A DNA stretch of 64,000 nucleotides from Nitrospirales bacterium (GCA_021603905.1 BQIU01000014.1:1-64000), one strand, 5' to 3'; counted from the stretch's first letter, positions 39,074 through 62,608 are shown. Notes: generated by a model from the sequence alone, not told the origin. Numbers and translations are program-made.

Positions 39074-39421
39074 ATGATGACGAATTCCACACATAGGCGA
39101 ACTATTCGGTCAGGAGGGATTCTTCTTTCATCGCTCTACCTGTTCTTGTTGGGGGCCGCTTCATTTTGTTTGTTTGCTCATGCGGCTCCTCCCAATGAAA
39201 CCACGCACCATACTCAACAGACCACCAATCATTCGACACTGTGCATATGGGCTTGCCAAGTCGGCTCCTATTCCTCAACGGGTCAGCTAGATTCAACTCC
39301 CGATACGAAACCTGACCTTCTCGTTGTAGCGATTCTTCAACACCCCTCTACCCTAGCGCCTCAAAACGATGCGCTCTCCATTCGATCCCGTGGCCCTCCT
39401 CAATCATTCCTGACAGTGTAA
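39074..39421 (+). CDS. small exported His/Cys protein, CxWxC-SRGPP type
   Basis: A 115-aa protein with an N-terminal hydrophobic signal (about residues 14-36, ending FAHAAPP), a His-rich stretch (THHTQQTTNH), the motif LCIWACQ (CxWxC) and a C-terminal SRGPP. The gene at 39940 has the same plan (His-rich, WCDWLC, SRGPP), so they are paralogues. I do not know a named family, though the layout resembles small DUF2946-like exported proteins found near TonB receptors for metals. 51 bases after exbD. Metal binding is inferred. Confidence 0.6.
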   Translation: MMTNSTHRRTIRSGGILLSSLYLFLLGAASFCLFAHAAPPNETTHHTQQTTNHSTLCIWACQVGSYSSTGQLDSTPDTKPDLLVVAILQHPSTLAPQNDALSIRSRGPPQSFLTV

Positions 39422-39939: not shown

Positions 39940-40260
39940 ATGATGACCATTCACATGAAATATCGGGTTGAACAACAAGTCGTCGCTCTCGTCCTGAGTT
40001 GTTGCTTCCTGGCTGTCAGCACCTCGTATGCCGGCGCCATGGCCAATCACGCAACCGATCATCACAGTCAGAACAGCCATGTACAATCGTGGTGCGACTG
40101 GCTATGCAAGGCAAGCCAGGCCATTCAAACGCCAAAGGTACAGCTTGATCAAGCATATACAGACATCACACCCCTTCTCTCTCATGAGGGAGAGCAACAG
40201 GTTCTCTGCTTCAACCTTCCTCCAGGATCTCGCGGCCCGCCCGTCACTCACAGTTCATAA
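39940..40260 (+). CDS. small exported His/Cys protein, second CxWxC-SRGPP copy
   Basis: A 106-aa paralogue of the product at 39074. It has a signal segment (about residues 12-33, ending SYAGA), a His-rich patch (NHATDHHSQNSH), WCDWLCK (CxWxC) and a C-terminal GSRGPP. Neither ATG (39940 or 39955) has a strong ribosome binding site. The shared plan with the first copy, despite little other identity, argues that both are real genes. Function unknown; periplasmic metal binding is a guess from the His/Cys pattern. Confidence 0.6.
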   Translation: MMTIHMKYRVEQQVVALVLSCCFLAVSTSYAGAMANHATDHHSQNSHVQSWCDWLCKASQAIQTPKVQLDQAYTDITPLLSHEGEQQVLCFNLPPGSRGPPVTHSS

Positions 40261-41409: not shown

Positions 41410-41601
41410 CCAAGGTGGGAGCCCACGTGACGGGAATATCGCGTGGGTGCTGAGATGATGACCTGACGGGGCAAGGCATGTGTTCCGTTGTGTGTGACAC
41501 CCAAGGTGGGAGCCCACGTGACGGGAATATCGCGTGGGTGCTGAGATGATGACCTGACGGGGCAAGGCATGTGTTCCGTTGTGTGTGACACCCAAGGTGG
41601 G
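41410..41601. repeat. 91-bp tandem repeat, 2.1 copies
   Basis: Two identical 91-bp units, 41410-41500 and 41501-41591, and the first ten bases of a third (41592-41601, CCAAGGTGGG). Each unit can form a hairpin AGCCCACG / CGTGGG-t-GCT with a 14-base loop. The unit length is not a multiple of three, so the long minus-strand frames across it change frame from copy to copy and are unlikely to be genes. The partial third copy supplies the left arm of the adjoining hairpin element. Confidence 0.93.
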
Positions 41602-41676
41602 CTCTTCCTCCTGGCCTTGGGAAACCCCAGGGTGAAGGCTTTTTAGGAATTGCAACCTCCTTGGCCTTCACCCTGG
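41591..41676. repeat. double-hairpin element, copy 1
   Basis: Hairpin B: CCCAAGG (41591-41597) and CCTTGGG (41615-41621) around a 17-base loop with CCTCC. Five bases on, hairpin A: CCAGGGTGAAGGC (41627-41639) and GCCTTCACCCTGG (41664-41676) around a loop with TTGCAACCTCCTTG. The same two hairpins, with equal spacing, recur at 47678-47760. Three stem pairs differ between the copies and all keep pairing, so the structure itself seems conserved. It could act as RNA on either strand, or be a repeat element. Confidence 0.75.
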
Positions 41677-41730
41677 ACTCTTACACCACGGATCGTAGTC
41701 TGGCTCGCACTCCTAGAATCAAGGCACCAG

Positions 41731-41910
41731 ATGGACAATCAAATGGCAACCGTTCAACAACAGCTGACTCAACAAATTAAAATCCGAGACCCTCAAGGAA
41801 GATGGCGCCGTGTCTCGAGTCTGAGCGAAACTGAAATTGAGCAAATCTGGAGTGAAACAACTTGCGAATTGCATGAAGGAGATGTCCTAAAACAACCTCT
41901 AAAAAGATAA
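41731..41910 (+). CDS. possible small protein, 59 aa
   Basis: A short charged product (IKIRDPQGRWRRVSSLSETE, then IEQIWSETTCELHEGD) with no signal or membrane segment. AAGG lies about six bases before the ATG at 41731. The frame is open further up to 41650 but runs through hairpin A, so the internal start is preferred. Coding character looks fair, and no family is recognised. Confidence 0.4.
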   Translation: MDNQMATVQQQLTQQIKIRDPQGRWRRVSSLSETEIEQIWSETTCELHEGDVLKQPLKR

Positions 41911-42122
41911 GCTCAAGTCGTCCCTTGCACTCCCCAAAAACTTGTTGGTCAAGTACAGATCGCATCCCCTTCCCATCATCATGCCACGTTTTTTCATTCT
42001 GAGAGACACGACTACATGCCGCATCAGACAGAAACACAAATCCAAAATCTTCATACTCTCGTAAGAGTTAATACATCAGTCACACTCCACTGTAATGTTA
42101 ACGTTTATAAAAGGAGGCATTC

Positions 42123-42791
42123 ATGATAAACAGAAGTATTATACATGACATCACGCATAGGACTCCCGGTTCTACCCGATTGGCTTTTACGAACATTTTC
42201 TTATATTTAGAAAAGATGAGGAGATTGCAGGTCATGAAAAAACTCATGGCTACGAGTCTATTGAGTATGCTCATCCCGTTCATTGGGTGTTCATCGATGT
42301 CGATGACTCCATCGGCACAATCCGATGACATGCCAAAAGACGGAGAACTGATGTTCCCCAAAGACTACAACACGTTTCCGACATTTTTGAAAGGCATTCA
42401 AAAACCTGATGCCGTTCGAGACCTCTACATTAATCAAACTGGCGCAAACGCTAGCCAAGGTATGCCGTTTGCTGATGGCTCGATCTTAGTCATGGCAATC
42501 TACAATGCGGAAAAAGACATGAATGGGGAATTCGCAAAAGATGCGCAAGACAATCTAGTCAAGGATCATCTAGCTAAGGTCTTTGTGATGCAAAAGGGTA
42601 AAGGCTGGGGCAAGCAGGCACCCATGGGATTGAAAAATGGAGATTGGATTTACTCGGCCTTCAAAGCAAATGGAGAACGATTAGACGTAGATTATAAGGC
42701 TTGCCGAGACTGCCATTTGCCGTTAGGGCAGTCCAAAGACTATGTCCATCGTTACGATGAGTACTTTGAAAAACGCGGTCATGCCTATTGA
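42123..42791 (+). CDS. cytochrome P460-family lipoprotein
   Basis: A mono-haem c-type protein of the cytochrome P460/c'-beta family. The C-terminal haem motif is ACRDCH (CxxCH), and the body has LVMAIYNAEKDMNG and WGKQAPMGLKNGDWIYSAF as in P460 proteins. Family members oxidise hydroxylamine or bind NO; activity here is unknown. An internal start at 42234 gives a clean lipobox (MLIPFIGC). The upstream ATG at 42123 has a near-perfect AAAAGGAGG but would add 37 residues ahead of the signal, so the real start is uncertain. Confidence 0.83.
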   Translation: MINRSIIHDITHRTPGSTRLAFTNIFLYLEKMRRLQVMKKLMATSLLSMLIPFIGCSSMSMTPSAQSDDMPKDGELMFPKDYNTFPTFLKGIQKPDAVRDLYINQTGANASQGMPFADGSILVMAIYNAEKDMNGEFAKDAQDNLVKDHLAKVFVMQKGKGWGKQAPMGLKNGDWIYSAFKANGERLDVDYKACRDCHLPLGQSKDYVHRYDEYFEKRGHAY

Positions 42792-43523
42792 ACCGAAAAT
42801 CAGACAGCCTATCGACATAAGAGAGGTCCTAACGAATTCTTAGATGCCGAAGTAGTCTATTATGCTGAGATGTACAGTTAGCAGGGTGAGGACGAACTGA
42901 AACCGCACGTTTCGTGGTCTTCACCCTGAACTCTAGCAACAAAGAACCAAGCCCGACTCAAACCCCATCACGGATATTGGCCCGTGTTACGTTGAGCGAA
43001 AGTCCAAAGCTCGATAAGTCATGATGCACGTACCGCACACCTTTGCCAACATCGCGGCATCAAGAGTGAAGGACTGCTGATTCTGACGTAAGACAATTCC
43101 CCATCATTTCTCCCTGCAATCCACTAGTCTAAAAAATGTGAAGCCCACTTTCCTCCTACGCGATTCGCAATAAAAATCACTCACTGCTTCTCAGCACAAG
43201 TAACCTGACACCTTTAGGTCATGGGACATAATTCTAATACTGTAGCATCCAGCAGTTTTTGGTGCGTTGATAGGTAGTTTATCCGTAGAACCCTATGGTA
43301 CTAACAAGCATATCTTGTACATAAATAGGAGCCCATAGAGAAAAAGATTAGAGAGTCTCTCTAGACTTCACCCAACGTGCGCCACGTTGTACATCTCCCA
43401 ACACACAATATTTAACTGTCACAATCTATCCAGCCAAGTCTTATGACGCAGGACTTCCTCACAATATATGAGATGCAAAAAACTGAAGTTCGTACGCCGT
43501 GCGCTGATGAGTGATCGAATGCC
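42792..43523. other. 732-bp intergenic region with inverted repeats
   Basis: No gene is visible. It contains the hairpin at 42882-42928 (listed separately), a palindrome GAGAG-T-CTCTC at 43351-43361, and a tight hairpin CAACGTG-cgc-CACGTTG at 43373-43389. The last two lie about 135-175 bases ahead of the amidohydrolase start and could be operator or attenuator structures. No Fur-like box was seen. Confidence 0.45.
42882..42928. repeat. related inverted repeat (third member of hairpin family)
   Basis: CAGGGTGA (42882-42889) pairs with TCACCCTG (42921-42928). The right arm and flank CTTCACCCTG-a-ACTCT match copy 1 of the double-hairpin element at 15 of 16 bases, but the loop is different and contains its own small hairpins (GAAAC/GTTTC, or CACG-TTT-CGTG). 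Hairpin B is absent. It looks like a diverged or partial relative. Confidence 0.55.
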
Positions 43524-44909
43524 ATGAAGTACATGCCTGTCTTCGTCCTATCTGTGATGATAGCCCTCAGTATCCACGCGACACCCCAAGGATACGCTTC
43601 GAATTCGTCGAGCACAGAGACCCTTCCTAAAGTCTATGCGTTTACCAATGGAAAATGGTTTGATGGGCGCACATTTCAAGATACGATCTTCTATGTCAAG
43701 AATGGCTTTTTGACAAAGACTCGTCCGCCGGTTGTCGATGAAACAATCAATCTGAAAGGACAATTTGTTCTTCCACCATTTGGAGAAGCCCATACCCATA
43801 ATGTCGAAGGGCCATGGAATATCGATCAGACAATTCAGACCTATTTGCGGCATGGAGTGTTCTATGTCAAAAACCTGAATAACATCCGGGAGTTTGCTGA
43901 ACAAATCCAGAACAAAATCAATAACCCCCAAAGCATTGACGTCGCCTTTGCCCACGCTGGAATTACTTCTAGCGATGGGCATCCAATACGCCTCTACGAG
44001 GAAGTCCTCCGTCTTCACCGCTATGAACCCATTATTGGAAAAAAGACACCGGGGTGGTTTAACAATCGTGGATATTTCGTCATCGATTCAAGGCAGGATT
44101 TAGACCGGACATGGCCCAAGATCGTCGCGGGCAAGCCGGATTTCCTGAAGATATACATTGGTCAGATTTCACCTGTCGCCCCCCATGCCCATGCACCCCA
44201 AGCACGGTTTCACCGGGGGCTCTACGCCAACCTGATCGCCCCAATCGTCAGGCGCGCTCATAAAAATGGATTACGAGTATCGGCTCACGTCGAAACGGCA
44301 GCAGACTTTCGGCAAGCTGTACAAAGCGGCGTGAATGAAATTGCCCATACCCCTGGCTGGTACATTCCAACCGTCGAGCAAGCCTCTGAAACCATATTGC
44401 AAAAACATGATGCCGATCTTGCGCTCCAACACAACGTCACCGTGGTGAGCACGACAGTGGCTAGCCTCATTTCCCCCTCCGAACAGCATCAATCTGATGC
44501 GGACCCTCATGCTCACAGCTCGGAAAGCCAGACCGATCACCACAACACGCACGCACAACACATTCAACAAGCGGCCGAAAAAATTCAACGCGATAATCTC
44601 CAATTGCTCCACCAACGAGGTGTAAAAGTTGCCATTGGCAGTGATCACGCAGAGACATCGCGTGCCGAAGCCCTTCATCTACATAATCTTGAAATATTCG
44701 ACAACCTCACGTTGCTCAAACTGTGGTGCGAAAACACGGCAGCAACCATCTTTCCACATCGAAAGATTGGCAAACTCACAGAAGGGTATGAGGCAAACTT
44801 TATCGTCCTGCAAGGCGATCCGATTCAAGACTTTGAGCAGATCCGCCATATAACGCTTCGTGTCAAACATGGCAAGCCATTATTCATCACAGACCCCCAT
44901 GCGCATTAA
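43524..44909 (+). CDS. exported amidohydrolase with a His-rich insertion
   Basis: A 461-aa metal-dependent hydrolase of the amidohydrolase superfamily. Signal peptide at residues 1-25; the HxH metal motif is H90-x-H92 (GEAHTHN); later metal/substrate residues are in VSAHVETAADF, NEIAHTPGW and AIGSDHAETSRAE. A His/Asp-rich loop (ADPHAHSSESQTDHHNTHAQ) is inserted before the last part of the barrel, and the protein ends in DPHAH. It precedes the receptor gene at 44975 by 65 bases, so the two are probably co-transcribed: uptake plus periplasmic hydrolysis of one compound is a fair inference. Confidence 0.83.
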   Translation: MKYMPVFVLSVMIALSIHATPQGYASNSSSTETLPKVYAFTNGKWFDGRTFQDTIFYVKNGFLTKTRPPVVDETINLKGQFVLPPFGEAHTHNVEGPWNIDQTIQTYLRHGVFYVKNLNNIREFAEQIQNKINNPQSIDVAFAHAGITSSDGHPIRLYEEVLRLHRYEPIIGKKTPGWFNNRGYFVIDSRQDLDRTWPKIVAGKPDFLKIYIGQISPVAPHAHAPQARFHRGLYANLIAPIVRRAHKNGLRVSAHVETAADFRQAVQSGVNEIAHTPGWYIPTVEQASETILQKHDADLALQHNVTVVSTTVASLISPSEQHQSDADPHAHSSESQTDHHNTHAQHIQQAAEKIQRDNLQLLHQRGVKVAIGSDHAETSRAEALHLHNLEIFDNLTLLKLWCENTAATIFPHRKIGKLTEGYEANFIVLQGDPIQDFEQIRHITLRVKHGKPLFITDPHAH

Positions 44910-44974
44910 TACATTTTTATTTCCAACTCGTATTCGCGTGAACACGCGAATCGCATGTCTCATATGAAAGGATC

Positions 44975-47200
44975 ATGAATGTGATCACAAGAGTGCGTCG
45001 AAACCTATGCATTCCATACAGTCTGTTCAGCATTGGCCTCATGTCCATGACGCTTGGGACTTCCATGACGTTTGCAGAACCGTCGAAGGAACCGGCACCC
45101 ACTGAAGTCGAAATGCTAGCGCCCGTTCTCGTCGAAGGAAAACGCATTGAAAATATTGATGTCGTCAAAGAAGAATTAGCACGACGGCCTGGAAGTGTCG
45201 CGTTAATTGAAGAAAAAGAAATACGCCAATCTCGAGGCGTTAACCTGAACGATGTCTTGCAGTTTGTTCCGGGCGTCCGGTTTCAAACCCGTTTCGGAGC
45301 GGACGAAGGACAATTTCAAATTCGCGGCACGTCACTTCGCAACAACTTTCACCATCGCGGCATTAATATTCTCATTAACGGTATCTACTTTGGAGACGCT
45401 GACGGATTCTCAGACTTTGAATCTATCGACCTCCTCGCCTATGAACGGATCGAGGTGTACAAGGGAGCCAATGCGTTACGCTACGGAGCCAATACAATTG
45501 GCGGAGCCATCAATTTTGTCCCCCGAACGGGATACAATGCCTCATTGCTACAAGTCAGGCTCCAAGGCGGAAGTTTTGGACTCGTCATGGGACAGGTTTC
45601 GAGTGGATACGTAACTAAGCCATTCAAGATTGGACACATGGATGTTGTCGCCGATTATTACATCAGCGCATCCGGCAGTCATCAGGACGGCTATCAGGAT
45701 AACAGCCAACAGGATCGTCAACGACTCAACGCCAACATTGGGTTAAAAATCGGTACCCATCAAGAAGTCCGCGCCTATATTTTAGGAGGCGTCGTCGCAG
45801 AACGCATTCCCGGTTCGTTGACACAGGCGCAGCTTGAAGATAACGATCAACAAGCTAATACCTTAGGAGGAATCAGTCCCTTTGCCTGCGGCCCAAACCA
45901 AGCCTGTAAATATGGCCGATACTACAACTTAATCCGAACAGGGGTCGCCTATCGTAACGAATTTACCGCCAATCAATTCTTAGAAATTATTCCCTATTAC
46001 TCCTATCAGTATGTCGATCATCCCATTTTTCAAACGATTGTCCAGGACAACTATAATGTGGGAGGAGAAATACGGTATAGCAACACCAATCCCCTTTTGG
46101 GTCATGACAATGTATTCATCATCGGTCATCAACCACGATACGGAGATACCAATCAACGACGGTTTGTGAACAATTTCGGGAATCGTGGAACACAAACCCA
46201 AAACCTCAGTTTACAAACGACCAATTTCGGAACATATCTGGAAAACCAATTCAATGTCACCGAGGATTTTATTTTTATTGCCGGAGGTCGGTGGGACTAC
46301 AGTATTCGGGAAGGCCGAAATCAGCTTTTCAGTCCATTTTCGGGAAACATGACCAGCAGTCGGACCGACCTCAGACAATTCAATGCCATTACTCCGAAAG
46401 TCGGTTTTTCCTACCAAACCACGCCGACGTCACAAATCTACGGAAATGTCAGCCGCGGCTATGAGCCACCAATCAATTTAGAGTTAACCTCCTCTGTCAA
46501 CCCTGATGGCTCCACGCCTACCAGCGCCTTCCTCACGCTTGATGCCCAACGTGCATGGCAATTTGAACTTGGCACGCGCGGGATCACCGACGACAATCGC
46601 ATCTCCTGGGAAGTGACCGTATTTGATTTAGAAATGCAAAAAGAAATCATCGCCTCCAATATTAACAATCAGGGAACTTTTCAAAATGCCAAAGGCACCC
46701 GGCACACAGGAGTCGAAGCGGGGGGAAGCATTGTGGTCGCCAATGGCCTTCTGGCACCTGGACCGAAAAATCAAAGTGATACGATCACTCTGAGATCGGC
46801 CTATACCTGGTCATTATTCAAATTCACCGACGACGTCGTCGGAGGAGGAGCCGTTGTCGCCGAAAAGAGTAATCGCGTTCCTGGTGCGCCGGAACATTAC
46901 CTCACTGGCGAGGTACGGTATGATCATCCGGCAGGCTTTTGGATCGCCCCGAACTTTGAATGGTCCATGGTTGGATATTATGTCGACTCGCTCAATACCA
47001 CCAAAAACTCGGCCTATTTCATCACCAACCTCCGTGCAGGATATAGCTACAACGACAGCCTTTCGTTCTTCGCTGAAGGCAGAAATCTCACCAATCAGAC
47101 CTATGCCGGAGCCGTCGTCGTGAATGACTCCTTAGGCCGATTCTTTAACCCAGGGCAAGGCATTAGCGGATTTGGCGGAGTCGAATGGAGATTTAATTAA
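44975..47200 (+). CDS. TonB-dependent outer-membrane receptor 1
   Basis: A 741-aa receptor: signal peptide ending TFA-EPS, plug domain at about residues 60-180 with QIRGTSLRNNFHHRGINILI and IEVYKGANALRYGANTIGGA, then a 22-strand-type barrel ending in an aromatic strand (GGVEWRF). It resembles the FecA/siderophore branch in plug motifs, but the ligand cannot be read from sequence. GAAAGGA lies just before the ATG. Likely co-transcribed with the amidohydrolase, and energised by the TonB/Exb genes upstream. Confidence 0.92.
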   Translation: MNVITRVRRNLCIPYSLFSIGLMSMTLGTSMTFAEPSKEPAPTEVEMLAPVLVEGKRIENIDVVKEELARRPGSVALIEEKEIRQSRGVNLNDVLQFVPGVRFQTRFGADEGQFQIRGTSLRNNFHHRGINILINGIYFGDADGFSDFESIDLLAYERIEVYKGANALRYGANTIGGAINFVPRTGYNASLLQVRLQGGSFGLVMGQVSSGYVTKPFKIGHMDVVADYYISASGSHQDGYQDNSQQDRQRLNANIGLKIGTHQEVRAYILGGVVAERIPGSLTQAQLEDNDQQANTLGGISPFACGPNQACKYGRYYNLIRTGVAYRNEFTANQFLEIIPYYSYQYVDHPIFQTIVQDNYNVGGEIRYSNTNPLLGHDNVFIIGHQPRYGDTNQRRFVNNFGNRGTQTQNLSLQTTNFGTYLENQFNVTEDFIFIAGGRWDYSIREGRNQLFSPFSGNMTSSRTDLRQFNAITPKVGFSYQTTPTSQIYGNVSRGYEPPINLELTSSVNPDGSTPTSAFLTLDAQRAWQFELGTRGITDDNRISWEVTVFDLEMQKEIIASNINNQGTFQNAKGTRHTGVEAGGSIVVANGLLAPGPKNQSDTITLRSAYTWSLFKFTDDVVGGGAVVAEKSNRVPGAPEHYLTGEVRYDHPAGFWIAPNFEWSMVGYYVDSLNTTKNSAYFITNLRAGYSYNDSLSFFAEGRNLTNQTYAGAVVVNDSLGRFFNPGQGISGFGGVEWRFN

Positions 47201-48030
47201 TTACGTTGACCTAACGCAAATAGATCATCGAGAGCATGGACAGACATCAAACCAGCTCAAGCAGGTACGAAGAGGCATTTCAACGAATGAGGATGTGGAA
47301 AATTTCTCAGAATACCCAGGCCCCTCGTCTCATCTGATTCATCAGACGCCGAAGATGAAACCTGAACCTACACGTATGCAAAAGATTTCTGTGATCTGCA
47401 TACCGGCATACCGCCGATTGGGATGACCTAGGAATCCAGTATCCGAAATCATTTTACGAACACTGAGAGTCAATGCACCTTCAATACAGAAGGAGTCGTC
47501 ACGGACATTGATGACAGACGTAACCCCTTCATGAATTCTTCTCGCACCCCGCCACAAAAAATCTGTGCATTTTGTAGCATGGATCAGCACTAACCAGTAG
47601 ACCAAAATCTTCTAATCACCTACTGTTGAGCCGTGCATCATCAACTGACATCCTCAATCTTGAAGTCGCGACATTGCTCCAAGGAAGGACCGGCCTCCAA
47701 ACCTTGGACATGCCCCGAGTGAAGGTGTTTGGACTTGCAACCTCCTTGGCCTTCACTCGGTCTTTTACCTTCATCACGCTTCACTCATACTGATTTACGG
47801 CACACCAACATCCGTCTAGACCACCACCACATATCTTCGAATCGTTGTTGTCATATGTGCACCTCAAGACATGAGTGTGAGTTATGACCGCGCCATGACT
47901 TCTTTCAGATGAACAGCGGACCATACCTACCACCCAAAATCAGGTCAGCTCATTCTGCGGTCTTGGCAACACGCAAAGCCGAATGGTTCATGACTGCGTT
48001 ATTCATTATTTTCCACAAGGAGATTATCGC
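47201..48030. other. 830-bp intergenic region with a double-hairpin element
   Basis: Between receptors 1 and 2. No gene is recognised; frames at 47172-47426 (plus) and 47342-47605 (minus) look like chance. It contains copy 2 of the double-hairpin element (47678-47760), followed by TCTTTTACC. The last 50 bases carry the AAGGAG ribosome binding site for receptor 2. Confidence 0.45.
47678..47760. repeat. double-hairpin element, copy 2
   Basis: Hairpin B: TCCAAGG (47678-47684) and CCTTGGA (47702-47708), 17-base loop with CCTCC at loop positions 10-14, as in copy 1. After the same 5-base spacer comes hairpin A: CCGAGTGAAGG (47715-47725) and CCTTCACTCGG (47750-47760), loop with TTGCAACCTCCTTGG. 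Relative to copy 1, one pair in hairpin B and two in hairpin A are exchanged with pairing kept. It is followed by TCTTTT on the plus strand, weakly terminator-like. Confidence 0.75.
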
Positions 48031-51255: not shown

Positions 51256-53452
51256 GTGCGTACAGCTAGGTTTCAACATTTTGGTAAGATGAATTTTGTT
51301 TTCTCTGTCGTCATTGCTGCAATCTGCGTGATGAGTATTGCGATACCAACCGTGACCGGGGAAGAACGAGAACTTTCTCATCCTCAATCGCGCGATAATT
51401 CCATCGCTCCGGAATCCAACACATCCCAAGACGACCTGAATGATGATGATGCGCCAGTGCAACAACTCGACCCCATTCACGTATTTGGGGCCAGACTGGT
51501 GTACCCTGATTTGGGAGCACGTTCTCTTCAAAAAAGCCAGGAGGCCATGACGCACGTTCCCGGAGGCTCTTCGGTTCTCAACATTGAACTGAACCATGAA
51601 ACCGCACTCCAAGACCTTGATGATGCGTTGCTATTTATTCCTGGAGTCTATATCGCCGGGCAAAATACCATAAGCGAAGGGACAAAAATTCAGATTCGTG
51701 GGTCGGGGGTCCGATCACTTGCTAGCCCAATACGAGGTATTTCCGTGTTTCGAAACGGCATTCCTCTCACACGGGCCAACGGGGGAACCGACACACAAAC
51801 GATGAACTATTTTGTCTGGGACCATGTCGAAGTCCTCCGAGGGGCCAATGCCCTGGCGCTGGGAGGATCTAGTTTAGGTGGAGCGATCAATACCATCACG
51901 CACACAGGACGCACGGCTCCAGGCTTTCTTGCCAGGACGACGTTCGGAAGTAATGAATATTTCAGTCCTCATCTCAGCTATGGTTATGCCAATGATCAAT
52001 TCGATGCCTATGCCGCCATTTCGTATGTGTCCTCGGAGGGGAATCGTTCTACGGCCAACGATCATGACAACAAGTATGGATTCATCAGTCTCGGCTACCG
52101 ATGGAACGATCGTCATGAAACTCGTCTCATCGTGGATCTCCAAAGACATCGATGGGAAAATGGAACCACTCTTACTCTCGCAGAGCTAAAAGACAATCCC
52201 CGGAAAAATAACCGAAACCCAGACGATGATAAGTTCCTTATTCCCAATTACCGAGTCTCCTTGAAACACAATGTGCGAACGGACCAATTAGGTCAATTTT
52301 CCTTTAGCACGTTTTACATGCGAAACGATTATGAATTTCCCTTCAACAATTCATTCGGCTTTTTTGAGGACACATGGGAAGAAGTCGGCTTCGCGGCGCG
52401 CAATGAACAGACTCAGCAGTGGTTTGGTCTTGCTCATCACCTCCAAATGGGAATGAATACTCAATAACATGTGGATCACCGATAAAAACTTTTCTTCTAT
52501 TGGTGGGGAAAAGGGCACGCTCACGTTTGGCGAAGATAATCACTTCTTTCTTCTTGAAACCTACCTCCAGGATCGCCTGTCACTCACGGACAGCTTCGAC
52601 GTCCTCCTTGGTCTCCAAGCGACCTACAAATGGCAGGAATTCGCTCAATTTTTTCCTGACATTAAAACTCGAACGGCCAACTCTACCGGTTTCAGTCCGA
52701 AAATTGGATTTACGTGGCAAGCCACCGACCTTGTGCAAATGTATGGAAACGTCAGCCGAAGTTTTGAAACCAAAACATTAAACAATATTACGGATTTGAC
52801 GGGCACCAACAAGATTAAGGATCAAGAAGGCACCACAGTGGAGATTGGAACCAGAGGCGGCTCACCATTGTTCTCCTGGGAACTCAGCTATTATTACGCG
52901 TGGGTAAAAAATGAATTCCTCGTCATTGAAGATCCTCCGCAATCCACGAACTTTGTGACAGGAAACGCCGATGATTCCATCCACACCGGCATTGAGCTGG
53001 GGTTGGCCTCTACGATTCCTGTGGAAATTTTCCATGCCGGTGACTCCATCCGAATGCGAGGCATCTACACGTGGAGTAACTTTACCTTTGATGGCGATCG
53101 CGTGTTTGGCGACAACCGATTGCCGGGCGTCCCCGAACACCTTGGCCTTGTCGAAATCCTCTATCAGCACGGCTCCGGGTTCTATGGCGGACCCAATGTC
53201 AAAATCGCGTCCCCCAATATTGCGGATTTTGGGAACTCTCTTGAGGCACCGTCCTATACACTGGTGGGGTTGCGGGCTGGATACATTCCACGAAGCAAGC
53301 GTTATCGAATATTTTTCGAAGCCAATAACCTCACGAATAAGGCTTATGCGGAATCTATTAGCATTACGAACAATGCCGGAGGCATGGATAGCCGTTTATT
53401 TTTACCGGGACAAACGCTTTCAGTGTTCGGAGGCGTTGAGATTCGATACTGA
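51256..53452 (+). pseudogene. TonB-dependent receptor 3, frameshifted
   Basis: Starts at GTG 51256 with GGAGG six bases upstream. The first frame runs to a TAA at 52465-52467 and encodes signal, plug (KIQIRGSGVRSLASPIRGIS, EVLRGANALALGGSSLGGA) and the first barrel strands. The rest of the barrel continues in the next frame from about 52457 (NNMWITDKNFSSIGG) to 53452, ending FGGVEIRY. The total is 2197 bases, that is 732 codons plus one base, so one extra base near 52450-52465 breaks an otherwise normal 731-aa receptor. Sequencing error and true mutation cannot be told apart here. Confidence 0.85.
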
Positions 53453-61162: not shown

Positions 61163-62608
61163 ATGACACGATACGATTTATCAAAAACATATAAATTCCA
61201 AGGACTGTGGTGGATTGGTGGTACTTCAGCCAAATTTCCGGGTCAACTTATCCTTTCGCCCGATGAAATAAAATTACGTGTTTACGGAAACTCGAGTGAC
61301 CTTGCCCCGCTAGACGATTACGATAGTGAAAAAAACAAACTTCCCATCTTTGGGAAGAGCGACAACGGCACCCTCTTTACTTTGTGGAGTGCTTCCAGTC
61401 TTGGACTTAGCCACAGTTCTCAACGTATTGCTTCAGTCGAACGAGAATGGCATGCAGTCGCCATCATATTGGCTAATTATTGTTTTATTGGAAAACACAT
61501 TGACTCCCCAAATGATAAAGTTGATGCTGATTGCTACATTAACTTCCCTCATCTTGAAGCTTGGTTTGGCCAACCTTTTCATGAAACTAAGTCTATGGCC
61601 AATAATCAAAAGGGAGTGTTAATAAGTCTGGACATCAAAGATTTAGGCAACCTTATAAATGTTGAGCTACCTTCGATGAAGGTCAAACTAAAAAGTCATC
61701 ATGCAGTTCAATTTAATGGAGGCGAAGAATTCAAACAATACAATTCCGATTGTACAGCATATCTTATCTTTCAGGCCGGGCATGATATTTCTCCAGACAA
61801 CGTTATGAACTTTGCTTATAACGTAACAAACCTATGGTCTCTTTTCACAGGAGTTCATATCGCACCTCAAGAAGTCTTTTTCAGGAAAATTAATGAACAA
61901 CTTAGAAATTGGGATGAAGTAAGAATTTACTCACCATTGAAAGAGTATGGTGCATTCGACAGAATTTATCACCACAGAGACATCCTCTTGAAGTACGAAA
62001 TCCTTAAAAACTCTATCGGAAATATAGTGGATAAATGGTTATCTGAAGGTGATCAAATGTCGGCAGTCAAATCCTTATTTTTCAATGCTTATAGATCTCG
62101 CAGAAAACGTGTTTATACTGTTTCCCAGTTCTTAAACTACGTAACCATATTAGAAATTATTGGTAGAAGAGATGATAAACCTGAAAAGCATTTATCAAAA
62201 AACGATGCAAAAGCTCTGCGAGATAAACTTGAGAAAGTCATTAATGAATTTATGCCGGAAACAGACCAACGAGCTCGCATTGTGAAAAAACTTGATTATA
62301 TTCATGTTCCTACGCTTAGAGAAAGCATAGAAAAAATTGCTGACGGTTTAATGCCACAGACAAAAAAACAATTCTCTTTGCTCGACACAGCAATGATTCA
62401 GAAACTCGTTCATTCAAGGAATTATTATACCCATTATGGTGATGTAAATCGGGGCAATGTAATTTCGTTAGATGATTTGCCTAGTGCAATTAATCAACTA
62501 ACAATCATCACCTCTCTTCTCTTATTGAAAAAATTGGGGATAAATGAAGAATTAATAATGGACGGGTTTAAGAATCGTTGGGATTATAAATCCGCGTTGA
62601 GAAATTGA
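61163..62608 (+). CDS. ApeA-like HEPN protein, probable antiphage RNase
   Basis: A 481-aa protein with an N-terminal beta-rich domain like that of ApeA (YKFQGLWWIGGTSAKFPGQL at the start, later EREWHAVAIILANYCFIGKH) and a C-terminal HEPN domain. The HEPN catalytic motif Rx4H is R419-NYYT-H424 in HSRNYYTHYG, followed by the final helix pair. In E. coli, ApeA is a single-gene antiphage HEPN ribonuclease. The gene is clearly more AT-rich than its neighbours, a sign of transfer. Assignment to ApeA proper rests on motif order and length. Confidence 0.78.
   Translation: MTRYDLSKTYKFQGLWWIGGTSAKFPGQLILSPDEIKLRVYGNSSDLAPLDDYDSEKNKLPIFGKSDNGTLFTLWSASSLGLSHSSQRIASVEREWHAVAIILANYCFIGKHIDSPNDKVDADCYINFPHLEAWFGQPFHETKSMANNQKGVLISLDIKDLGNLINVELPSMKVKLKSHHAVQFNGGEEFKQYNSDCTAYLIFQAGHDISPDNVMNFAYNVTNLWSLFTGVHIAPQEVFFRKINEQLRNWDEVRIYSPLKEYGAFDRIYHHRDILLKYEILKNSIGNIVDKWLSEGDQMSAVKSLFFNAYRSRRKRVYTVSQFLNYVTILEIIGRRDDKPEKHLSKNDAKALRDKLEKVINEFMPETDQRARIVKKLDYIHVPTLRESIEKIADGLMPQTKKQFSLLDTAMIQKLVHSRNYYTHYGDVNRGNVISLDDLPSAINQLTIITSLLLLKKLGINEELIMDGFKNRWDYKSALRN

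Follow-up and report, generated by a model that had tools for sequence, protein, structure and literature searches.

We have found in the genome of a Nitrospirales bacterium (GCA_021603905.1) an element of two consecutive hairpins, each with CCTCC in its loop, that represents a real, lineage-restricted and previously unnamed RNA family, with no entry in Rfam and belonging to none of the families tested. The analysis started from one stretch of 64,000 nucleotides (BQIU01000014.1:1-64000, here called the window) and was extended to the whole assembly, to the order and to the phylum. The function that we favor, with roughly even chances of being right, is that of a terminator-type 3' element with two anti-Shine-Dalgarno (anti-SD) loops, the 3' fragment of which would most likely mask ribosome-binding sites in cis or in trans.

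Two copies of a double hairpin in the window

A previous reading of the window, made from the sequence only, had described a double hairpin in two copies, and both were recovered where it had placed them, folding on the plus strand as described. The coordinates, with the bit scores of the covariance models R1 and R2 (R2 was made from the 3' hairpin alone) and the folding z-scores of the plus strand, are as follows.

41591-41683, plus strand: element copy 1, double hairpin and T-containing tail (R1 92.4 bits, E 3.4e-17; z-score -5.1)
41591-41621, plus strand: 5' hairpin of copy 1 (CCCAAGG/CCTTGGG), with CCTCC in the loop at 41607-41611
41627-41676, plus strand: terminator-like 3' hairpin of copy 1, with CCTCC in the loop at 41656-41660 (R2 71.2 bits)
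47678-47768, plus strand: element copy 2, double hairpin and T-rich tail TCTTTTAC (R1 93.5 bits, E 1.9e-17; z-score -3.2)
47678-47708, plus strand: 5' hairpin of copy 2, loop GGACCGGCCTCC, with CCTCC at 47694-47698
47715-47760, plus strand: terminator-like 3' hairpin of copy 2, with CCTCC at 47741-47745 (R2 72.9 bits)
42878-42936, plus strand: diverged third hairpin of the 3' type, which keeps the stem and lacks CCTCC (R2 27.8 bits, E 4.3e-4 over the whole genome)

The two hairpins of copy 1 are separated by a spacer of 5 nt. A 17-nt loop with CCTCC at loop positions 10-14 had been proposed and is correct for both 5' hairpins, and the three compensated stem-pair differences that had been listed between the copies were confirmed. 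A fourth differing pair, a C-G to T-G wobble adjoining the 3' loop, was absent from that list, and the diverged hairpin, located 87 nt 3' of the cytochrome P460 gene, had been missed. The shared core TTGCAACCTCCTTGGCCTTC, a 20-mer, occurs exactly twice in the window, versus 0 occurrences expected from shuffles. In the search of the whole assembly (4.7 Mb in 203 contigs) the only full copies were these two, plus the diverged hairpin. The T-tail is weak in the window copies, and a simple terminator scan with a loop limit of 8 did not pick them up.

Copies 1 and 2 are located 266 and 480 nt behind their preceding genes, and about 215 nt separate the end of copy 2 from the start of the next gene. 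At 41410-41601 a 91-bp unit is perfectly duplicated in tandem (2.1 copies), up to a point within the first arm of copy 1. The unit begins with CCAAGGTGGG, as does the hairpin arm of copy 1. The duplication may be either genuine and recent or an assembly effect; in the congener G003 the unit is single and diverged. Minus the duplication, about 85 nt would separate copy 1 from the gene before it.

Distribution, covariation and loop motif

We call home family the family to which the genome of the window belongs, and sister family another family of the same order, probably Nitrospiraceae to judge from its size and place. Searches of relatives found many copies beyond the original two, with their stems conserved. 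In the home family the element is carried by 24 of 49 genomes, belonging to four genera and including Nitrospirales NPIRA02, NPIRA03, NPIRA04, NPIRA06, OFTM51 and Nitrospira sp. The four congeners have 1-3 copies each, and the range over the congeners and the three further genera is 1-5 copies per genome. The alignment comprised 36 distinct home-family copies. Three subtypes could be told apart by hairpin 1, which has either the loop GGACCGGCCTCC (type I), the loop GGCTCTTCCTCC (type II) or is an unrelated GGAGCGG hairpin (type III), the 5' loop of the latter being without CCTCC. These numbers speak against the REP-like repeat that the sequence-only reading had entertained, since the home-family copies are so few per genome and mostly confined to one gene cluster. 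REP/BIME elements were rejected in the same way: they are defined by many dispersed copies, and here the own genome has two full copies and the relatives have few, largely at one locus.

When R2 was applied to the sister family it gave weak matches, paired on one strand and a few kilobases apart. The elements found there show the same double hairpin, with a T-tail and with CCTCC in each loop, but their stem sequences are different (GTCCGAGC/GCTCGGAC and GCGGGGTGAAGG/CCTTCGCCCCGC). With a model made from them (R3), matches were obtained in 75 of 236 genomes when the order was searched, the home family contributing none of the 75, and in 55 of a sample of 396 genomes from the phylum, each of the 55 being a member of this order. 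Some 30 scattered matches to the hairpin pattern in unrelated phyla, obtained in a scan of a genome collection, were taken as chance. There was no match to Rfam 15 in the window at the gathering threshold, and the elements searched at relaxed thresholds gave chance-level matches only.

Over both families, two-sided changes were detected at 19 of the 22 pairs and 95.6% of the cells were paired, a percentage inflated by the fitting of this alignment to the structure; none of 500 shuffles did as well on either measure. The counts within families are more conservative for this reason. The sister family alone had 13 doubly changed pairs out of 20 (again with none of 500 shuffles equalling either measure), and in types I and II of the home family 98.2% of the cells pair, with two-sided change at 7 of 22 pairs. 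Pairing collapsed when the partners were slid, both in the two-family alignment and in that of the sister family. The selected structure that had been claimed from two copies is therefore secure, given the 19 two-sided pairs and the outcome of the shuffles, and it is strongly supported by the many further copies.

Among distinct copies, CCTCC was present in the loop of hairpin 1 in 25/38 cases in the home family and 28/34 in the sister family, and in that of hairpin 2 in 36/38 and 28/34, the 36/38 being biased by a search pattern that demanded CCTCC. The hairpin 1 loops of the first sister-family copies are unbiased in this respect, since R2 models hairpin 2 only. The motif was found in just 29 of 1289 other hairpins of the same DNA. 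Thus CCTCC is kept in both loops across two families though most of the stem pairs have changed. It is hard to reconcile this persistence, and the maintenance of the two-hairpin layout, with ordinary intrinsic terminators or mRNA-stabilizing 3' hairpins that spread by duplication within the cluster and merely inherited CCTCC. Such an origin would fit the 3' position and the T-tail (see below), tandem duplication is evident, and the diverged hairpin at 42878-42936 has retained its stem and not its loop, but on balance we find it unlikely.

Within the home family the stem core GTGAAGG/CCTTCAC hardly varies, and both hairpins share the layout AAGG-n-GG...CCTCC-n-CCTT. Both features would be expected of a site, in RNA or DNA, where stem and loop are recognized by a protein, such as a metal-responsive regulator dedicated to it. 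However, the stem pairs change freely between the families and the element has no candidate protein linked to it, which makes a protein site quite improbable.

Genomic position and proposed function

In the home family the elements belong to a gene cluster that includes TonB, ExbB, ExbD, a TPR protein, small ORFs, a 275-aa protein (orf275), cytochrome P460, an amidohydrolase, TonB receptors, a BNR protein, a redoxin and a PepSY protein. The copies that could be placed were on the same strand as the neighboring TonB, TonB-receptor, cytochrome P460 or small-ORF genes, often 20-110 nt 3' of the stop codon. At most home-family loci the element is located 16-55 nt behind the P460 stop, or overlaps orf275 or is just behind it, and most of the placeable copies of this family are within about 60 nt behind one of these two genes. 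Hairpin 2 is followed on average by T-rich sequence in both families, on the plus strand only, and TTTT appears within about 16 nt of the hairpin in 15 of 36 home-family copies. No conserved promoter was seen before hairpin 1 in this family. In the window, a TonB receptor is split into two consecutive ORFs, the plug half (51256-52467) and the barrel half (52469-53452), as a result of a frameshift, a pseudogene or an assembly error. Also in the window, the gene at 61163-62608, a candidate for anti-phage defence, codes for a protein with an ApeA N-terminal domain and an Apea-like HEPN domain.

The tail, the 3' position and the strand of the neighboring genes indicate that the suggestion of an sRNA, leader or terminator was on the right track. 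The parallel suggestion, that the minus strand is bound through GGAGG by CsrA/RsmA-type proteins, loses its support, because gene orientation and T-tail point to the plus strand as the one transcribed. A sponge for such proteins made from the minus strand could invoke the GGAGG loops of that strand and the presence of a CsrA gene in the genome (and in 14 of 21 Nitrospirales genomes, own genome included). But the copies run with their neighboring genes, the tail is on the other strand, the window copies have a better z-score when folded as plus strand, and GGA is not conserved on the plus strand of the element, and we consider this sponge hardly conceivable.

Small ORFs are a further neighbor of the element. 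Two of them, recognized by motif, precede copy 1 in the window.

39074-39421, plus strand: CruR/CutF-like small ORF (CIWAC ... SRGPP)
39940-40260, plus strand: CruR/CutF-like small ORF (CDWLC ... SRGPP), which heads the orf275-P460 genes

For the former, no Pfam or NCBIfam family scored above cut-off. Of the 61 sister-family copies, 25 come after a small ORF that has CxWxC and RAPP or RGPP, at 83-91 nt from its stop in 20 of these 25, and others are found behind TonB receptors or an ORF ending in GNQASN or GNQATN, at 60-113 nt. RAPP and RGPP are arrest motifs (PMC12992588), and CruR, involved in the copper control of a TonB receptor, combines CXXC and RAPP with 45 residues between them (PMC9426467). 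In our loci 84 ORFs have a double-Cys motif, mostly CxWxC, and in nearly all of those listed the first Pro of RAPP/RGPP follows the start of this motif by 48-51 residues. Their best score against Pfam DUF2946 was 18.3 bits, below the cut-off of 23.7, and the tested small ORFs adjacent to the elements had no match to DUF1127 and only a weak one to DUF2946. Since the ORFs are CruR/CutF-like and stay below this cut-off, a regulon that senses copper can be suggested only by analogy. These short, exported-looking CxWxC-RAPP/RGPP ORFs form a large family with several members per TonB/P460 cluster, and homologues of those in the window appear in loci L029-L034, L108-L121, L155-L159 and L168-L197. The Pro-Pro of the sister-family RAPP ORFs is coded CCT-CCN in 28 of 38, over a background in which CCT makes up 19% of Pro codons and 32% of those ahead of a second Pro; the home family is less biased (19/46). 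With this coding the motif of the hairpin loops, CCUCC, is also spelled out at the site of arrest.

This association gives rise to the main rival explanation, a cis-only attenuator. The element would be a regulated terminator behind a CruR/CutF-like uORF, and whether the nascent peptide stalls or is completed at RAPP would determine if RNA polymerase continues into the next gene or if the next ribosome-binding site is masked. The 25 sister-family copies with their mostly regular distance speak for it, and precedents are CutF, which works via a downstream stem-loop with an anti-SD (PMC9973294), and CruR, via Rho-dependent termination (PMC9426467). However, most home-family copies follow P460 or orf275 and not a uORF, stalling at RAPP would leave the ribosome about 120 nt short of hairpin 1, and no conserved fold, alternative included, was found in the spacer of about 85 nt behind the RAPP ORFs. 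Besides, two sister-family genomes contain tandem arrays of four elements, in the order RAPP ORF, four elements, RAPP ORF, element, and four terminators in a row make little sense for a single switch. We regard the attenuator as possible, if somewhat doubtful. Between the units of the arrays only spurious short ORFs were detected, so that the RNA itself is likely the product.

In the terminator-type reading that we prefer, the element would be transcribed as plus-strand RNA and fold at, or close to, the 3' end of TonB/ExbBD/TonB-receptor/cytochrome-P460 transcription units, in a gene cluster headed by putative arrest-peptide ORFs of a metal-sensing type. The 3' hairpin would act as an intrinsic terminator or descend from one, and both loops would expose CCUCC, the anti-SD core. 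Once terminated and released, a stable 3' fragment could pair with ribosome-binding sites (AGGAG) and mask them, in cis on its own transcript or in trans as an sRNA, and the transcripts of the regulon might thereby lower each other's translation. A further reading, in which a CxWxC-RAPP arrest peptide controls one to four anti-SD double-hairpin RNAs that silence the translation of TonB-dependent copper uptake and P460 in Hfq-less Nitrospirales, appears rather unlikely to hold in full. Hfq was found in none of the 21 Nitrospirales genomes searched (G000-G004 and 16 relatives).

A candidate partner of the 3' loops is located in the window.

42214-42236, plus strand: translation start region of P460 (predicted duplex -23.4 kcal/mol)

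Over about 16 nt this region can pair with the 3' loop of copy 2 (47724-47749), and it was by far the best in the window, as in the congener G004, when the loop was compared with the start regions of all cluster genes, the next one in the window reaching -16.2. Shuffles of the loop that kept the CCUCC core gave an equally good duplex in a proportion of 0.0005. Across loci the same test gave p values of 0.0005, 0.016 and 0.02 at three and about 0.5 at four others, and strong pairing, present in the window and in the congener G004, fails in most relatives, so the P460 pairing stays a lead only. The extended loop complement AAGGAGGTTGCAA, allowing up to 2 mismatches, was not enriched in the own genome (97 sites versus 229 for the reversed control).

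Relation to known systems

A literature search found no described sRNA in nitrite-oxidizing bacteria, for which the element provides a clean and testable RNA family, with anti-SD hairpins tied to arrest-peptide ORFs in what may be a copper-type regulon. Should the loops work in trans, a design with arrays of anti-SD loops would have emerged in a second phylum, one that apparently lacks Hfq. The first parallel is with the CcsR or cuckoo RNAs of Alphaproteobacteria (ccaF1-CcsR1-4; SmelA075/SmelA099), as described in citing papers (PMC3927594, PMC10253847). Like them, the element has several hairpins with an anti-SD motif in each loop and stems that vary, is found in tandem multi-copy form (here four in a row in two sister-family genomes) and sits behind a small-protein gene with a terminator, here a putative one, at the end. 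In contrast, the shared loop motif is the shorter CCTCC and not the full CCUCCUCCC reported there, the small ORF is CxWxC-RAPP instead of DUF1127, and the hosts are Nitrospirales, without Hfq in the genomes tested, and with no Rfam match. With RNAIII-type and other C-rich sRNAs with anti-SD loops the element shares unpaired loops able to mask ribosome-binding sites (mentioned in PMC3927594); to these it has no known homology in sequence or structure, and its own targets are putative.

The second parallel is with cutF-cutO of Rhodobacter capsulatus, a metal operon in which an arrest-type ORF with CxxxC and a proline-rich motif is followed by an anti-SD stem-loop (PMC9973294). An arrest-type ORF is also upstream of the element in the 25 sister-family copies, but not in most of the home-family ones. 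In CutF the SD of the following gene is part of the stem-loop and is masked by it, whereas the element has no SD (no GGAGG) and consists of two hairpins and a T-tail, mostly after other genes in the home family. The CruR (DUF2946) uORF of Bordetella pertussis has its Cys motif about 45 residues before a C-terminal RAPP, similar to the small ORFs described here, and TonB-receptor and PepSY genes are common to both systems (PMC9426467, PMC12914433). There, termination is Rho-dependent in an unstructured region, while here we find a structured element, and small ORFs that score below the DUF2946 cut-off. The best reading of these comparisons is that the element resembles the CcsR/cuckoo RNAs and the CutF stem-loop and belongs to neither.
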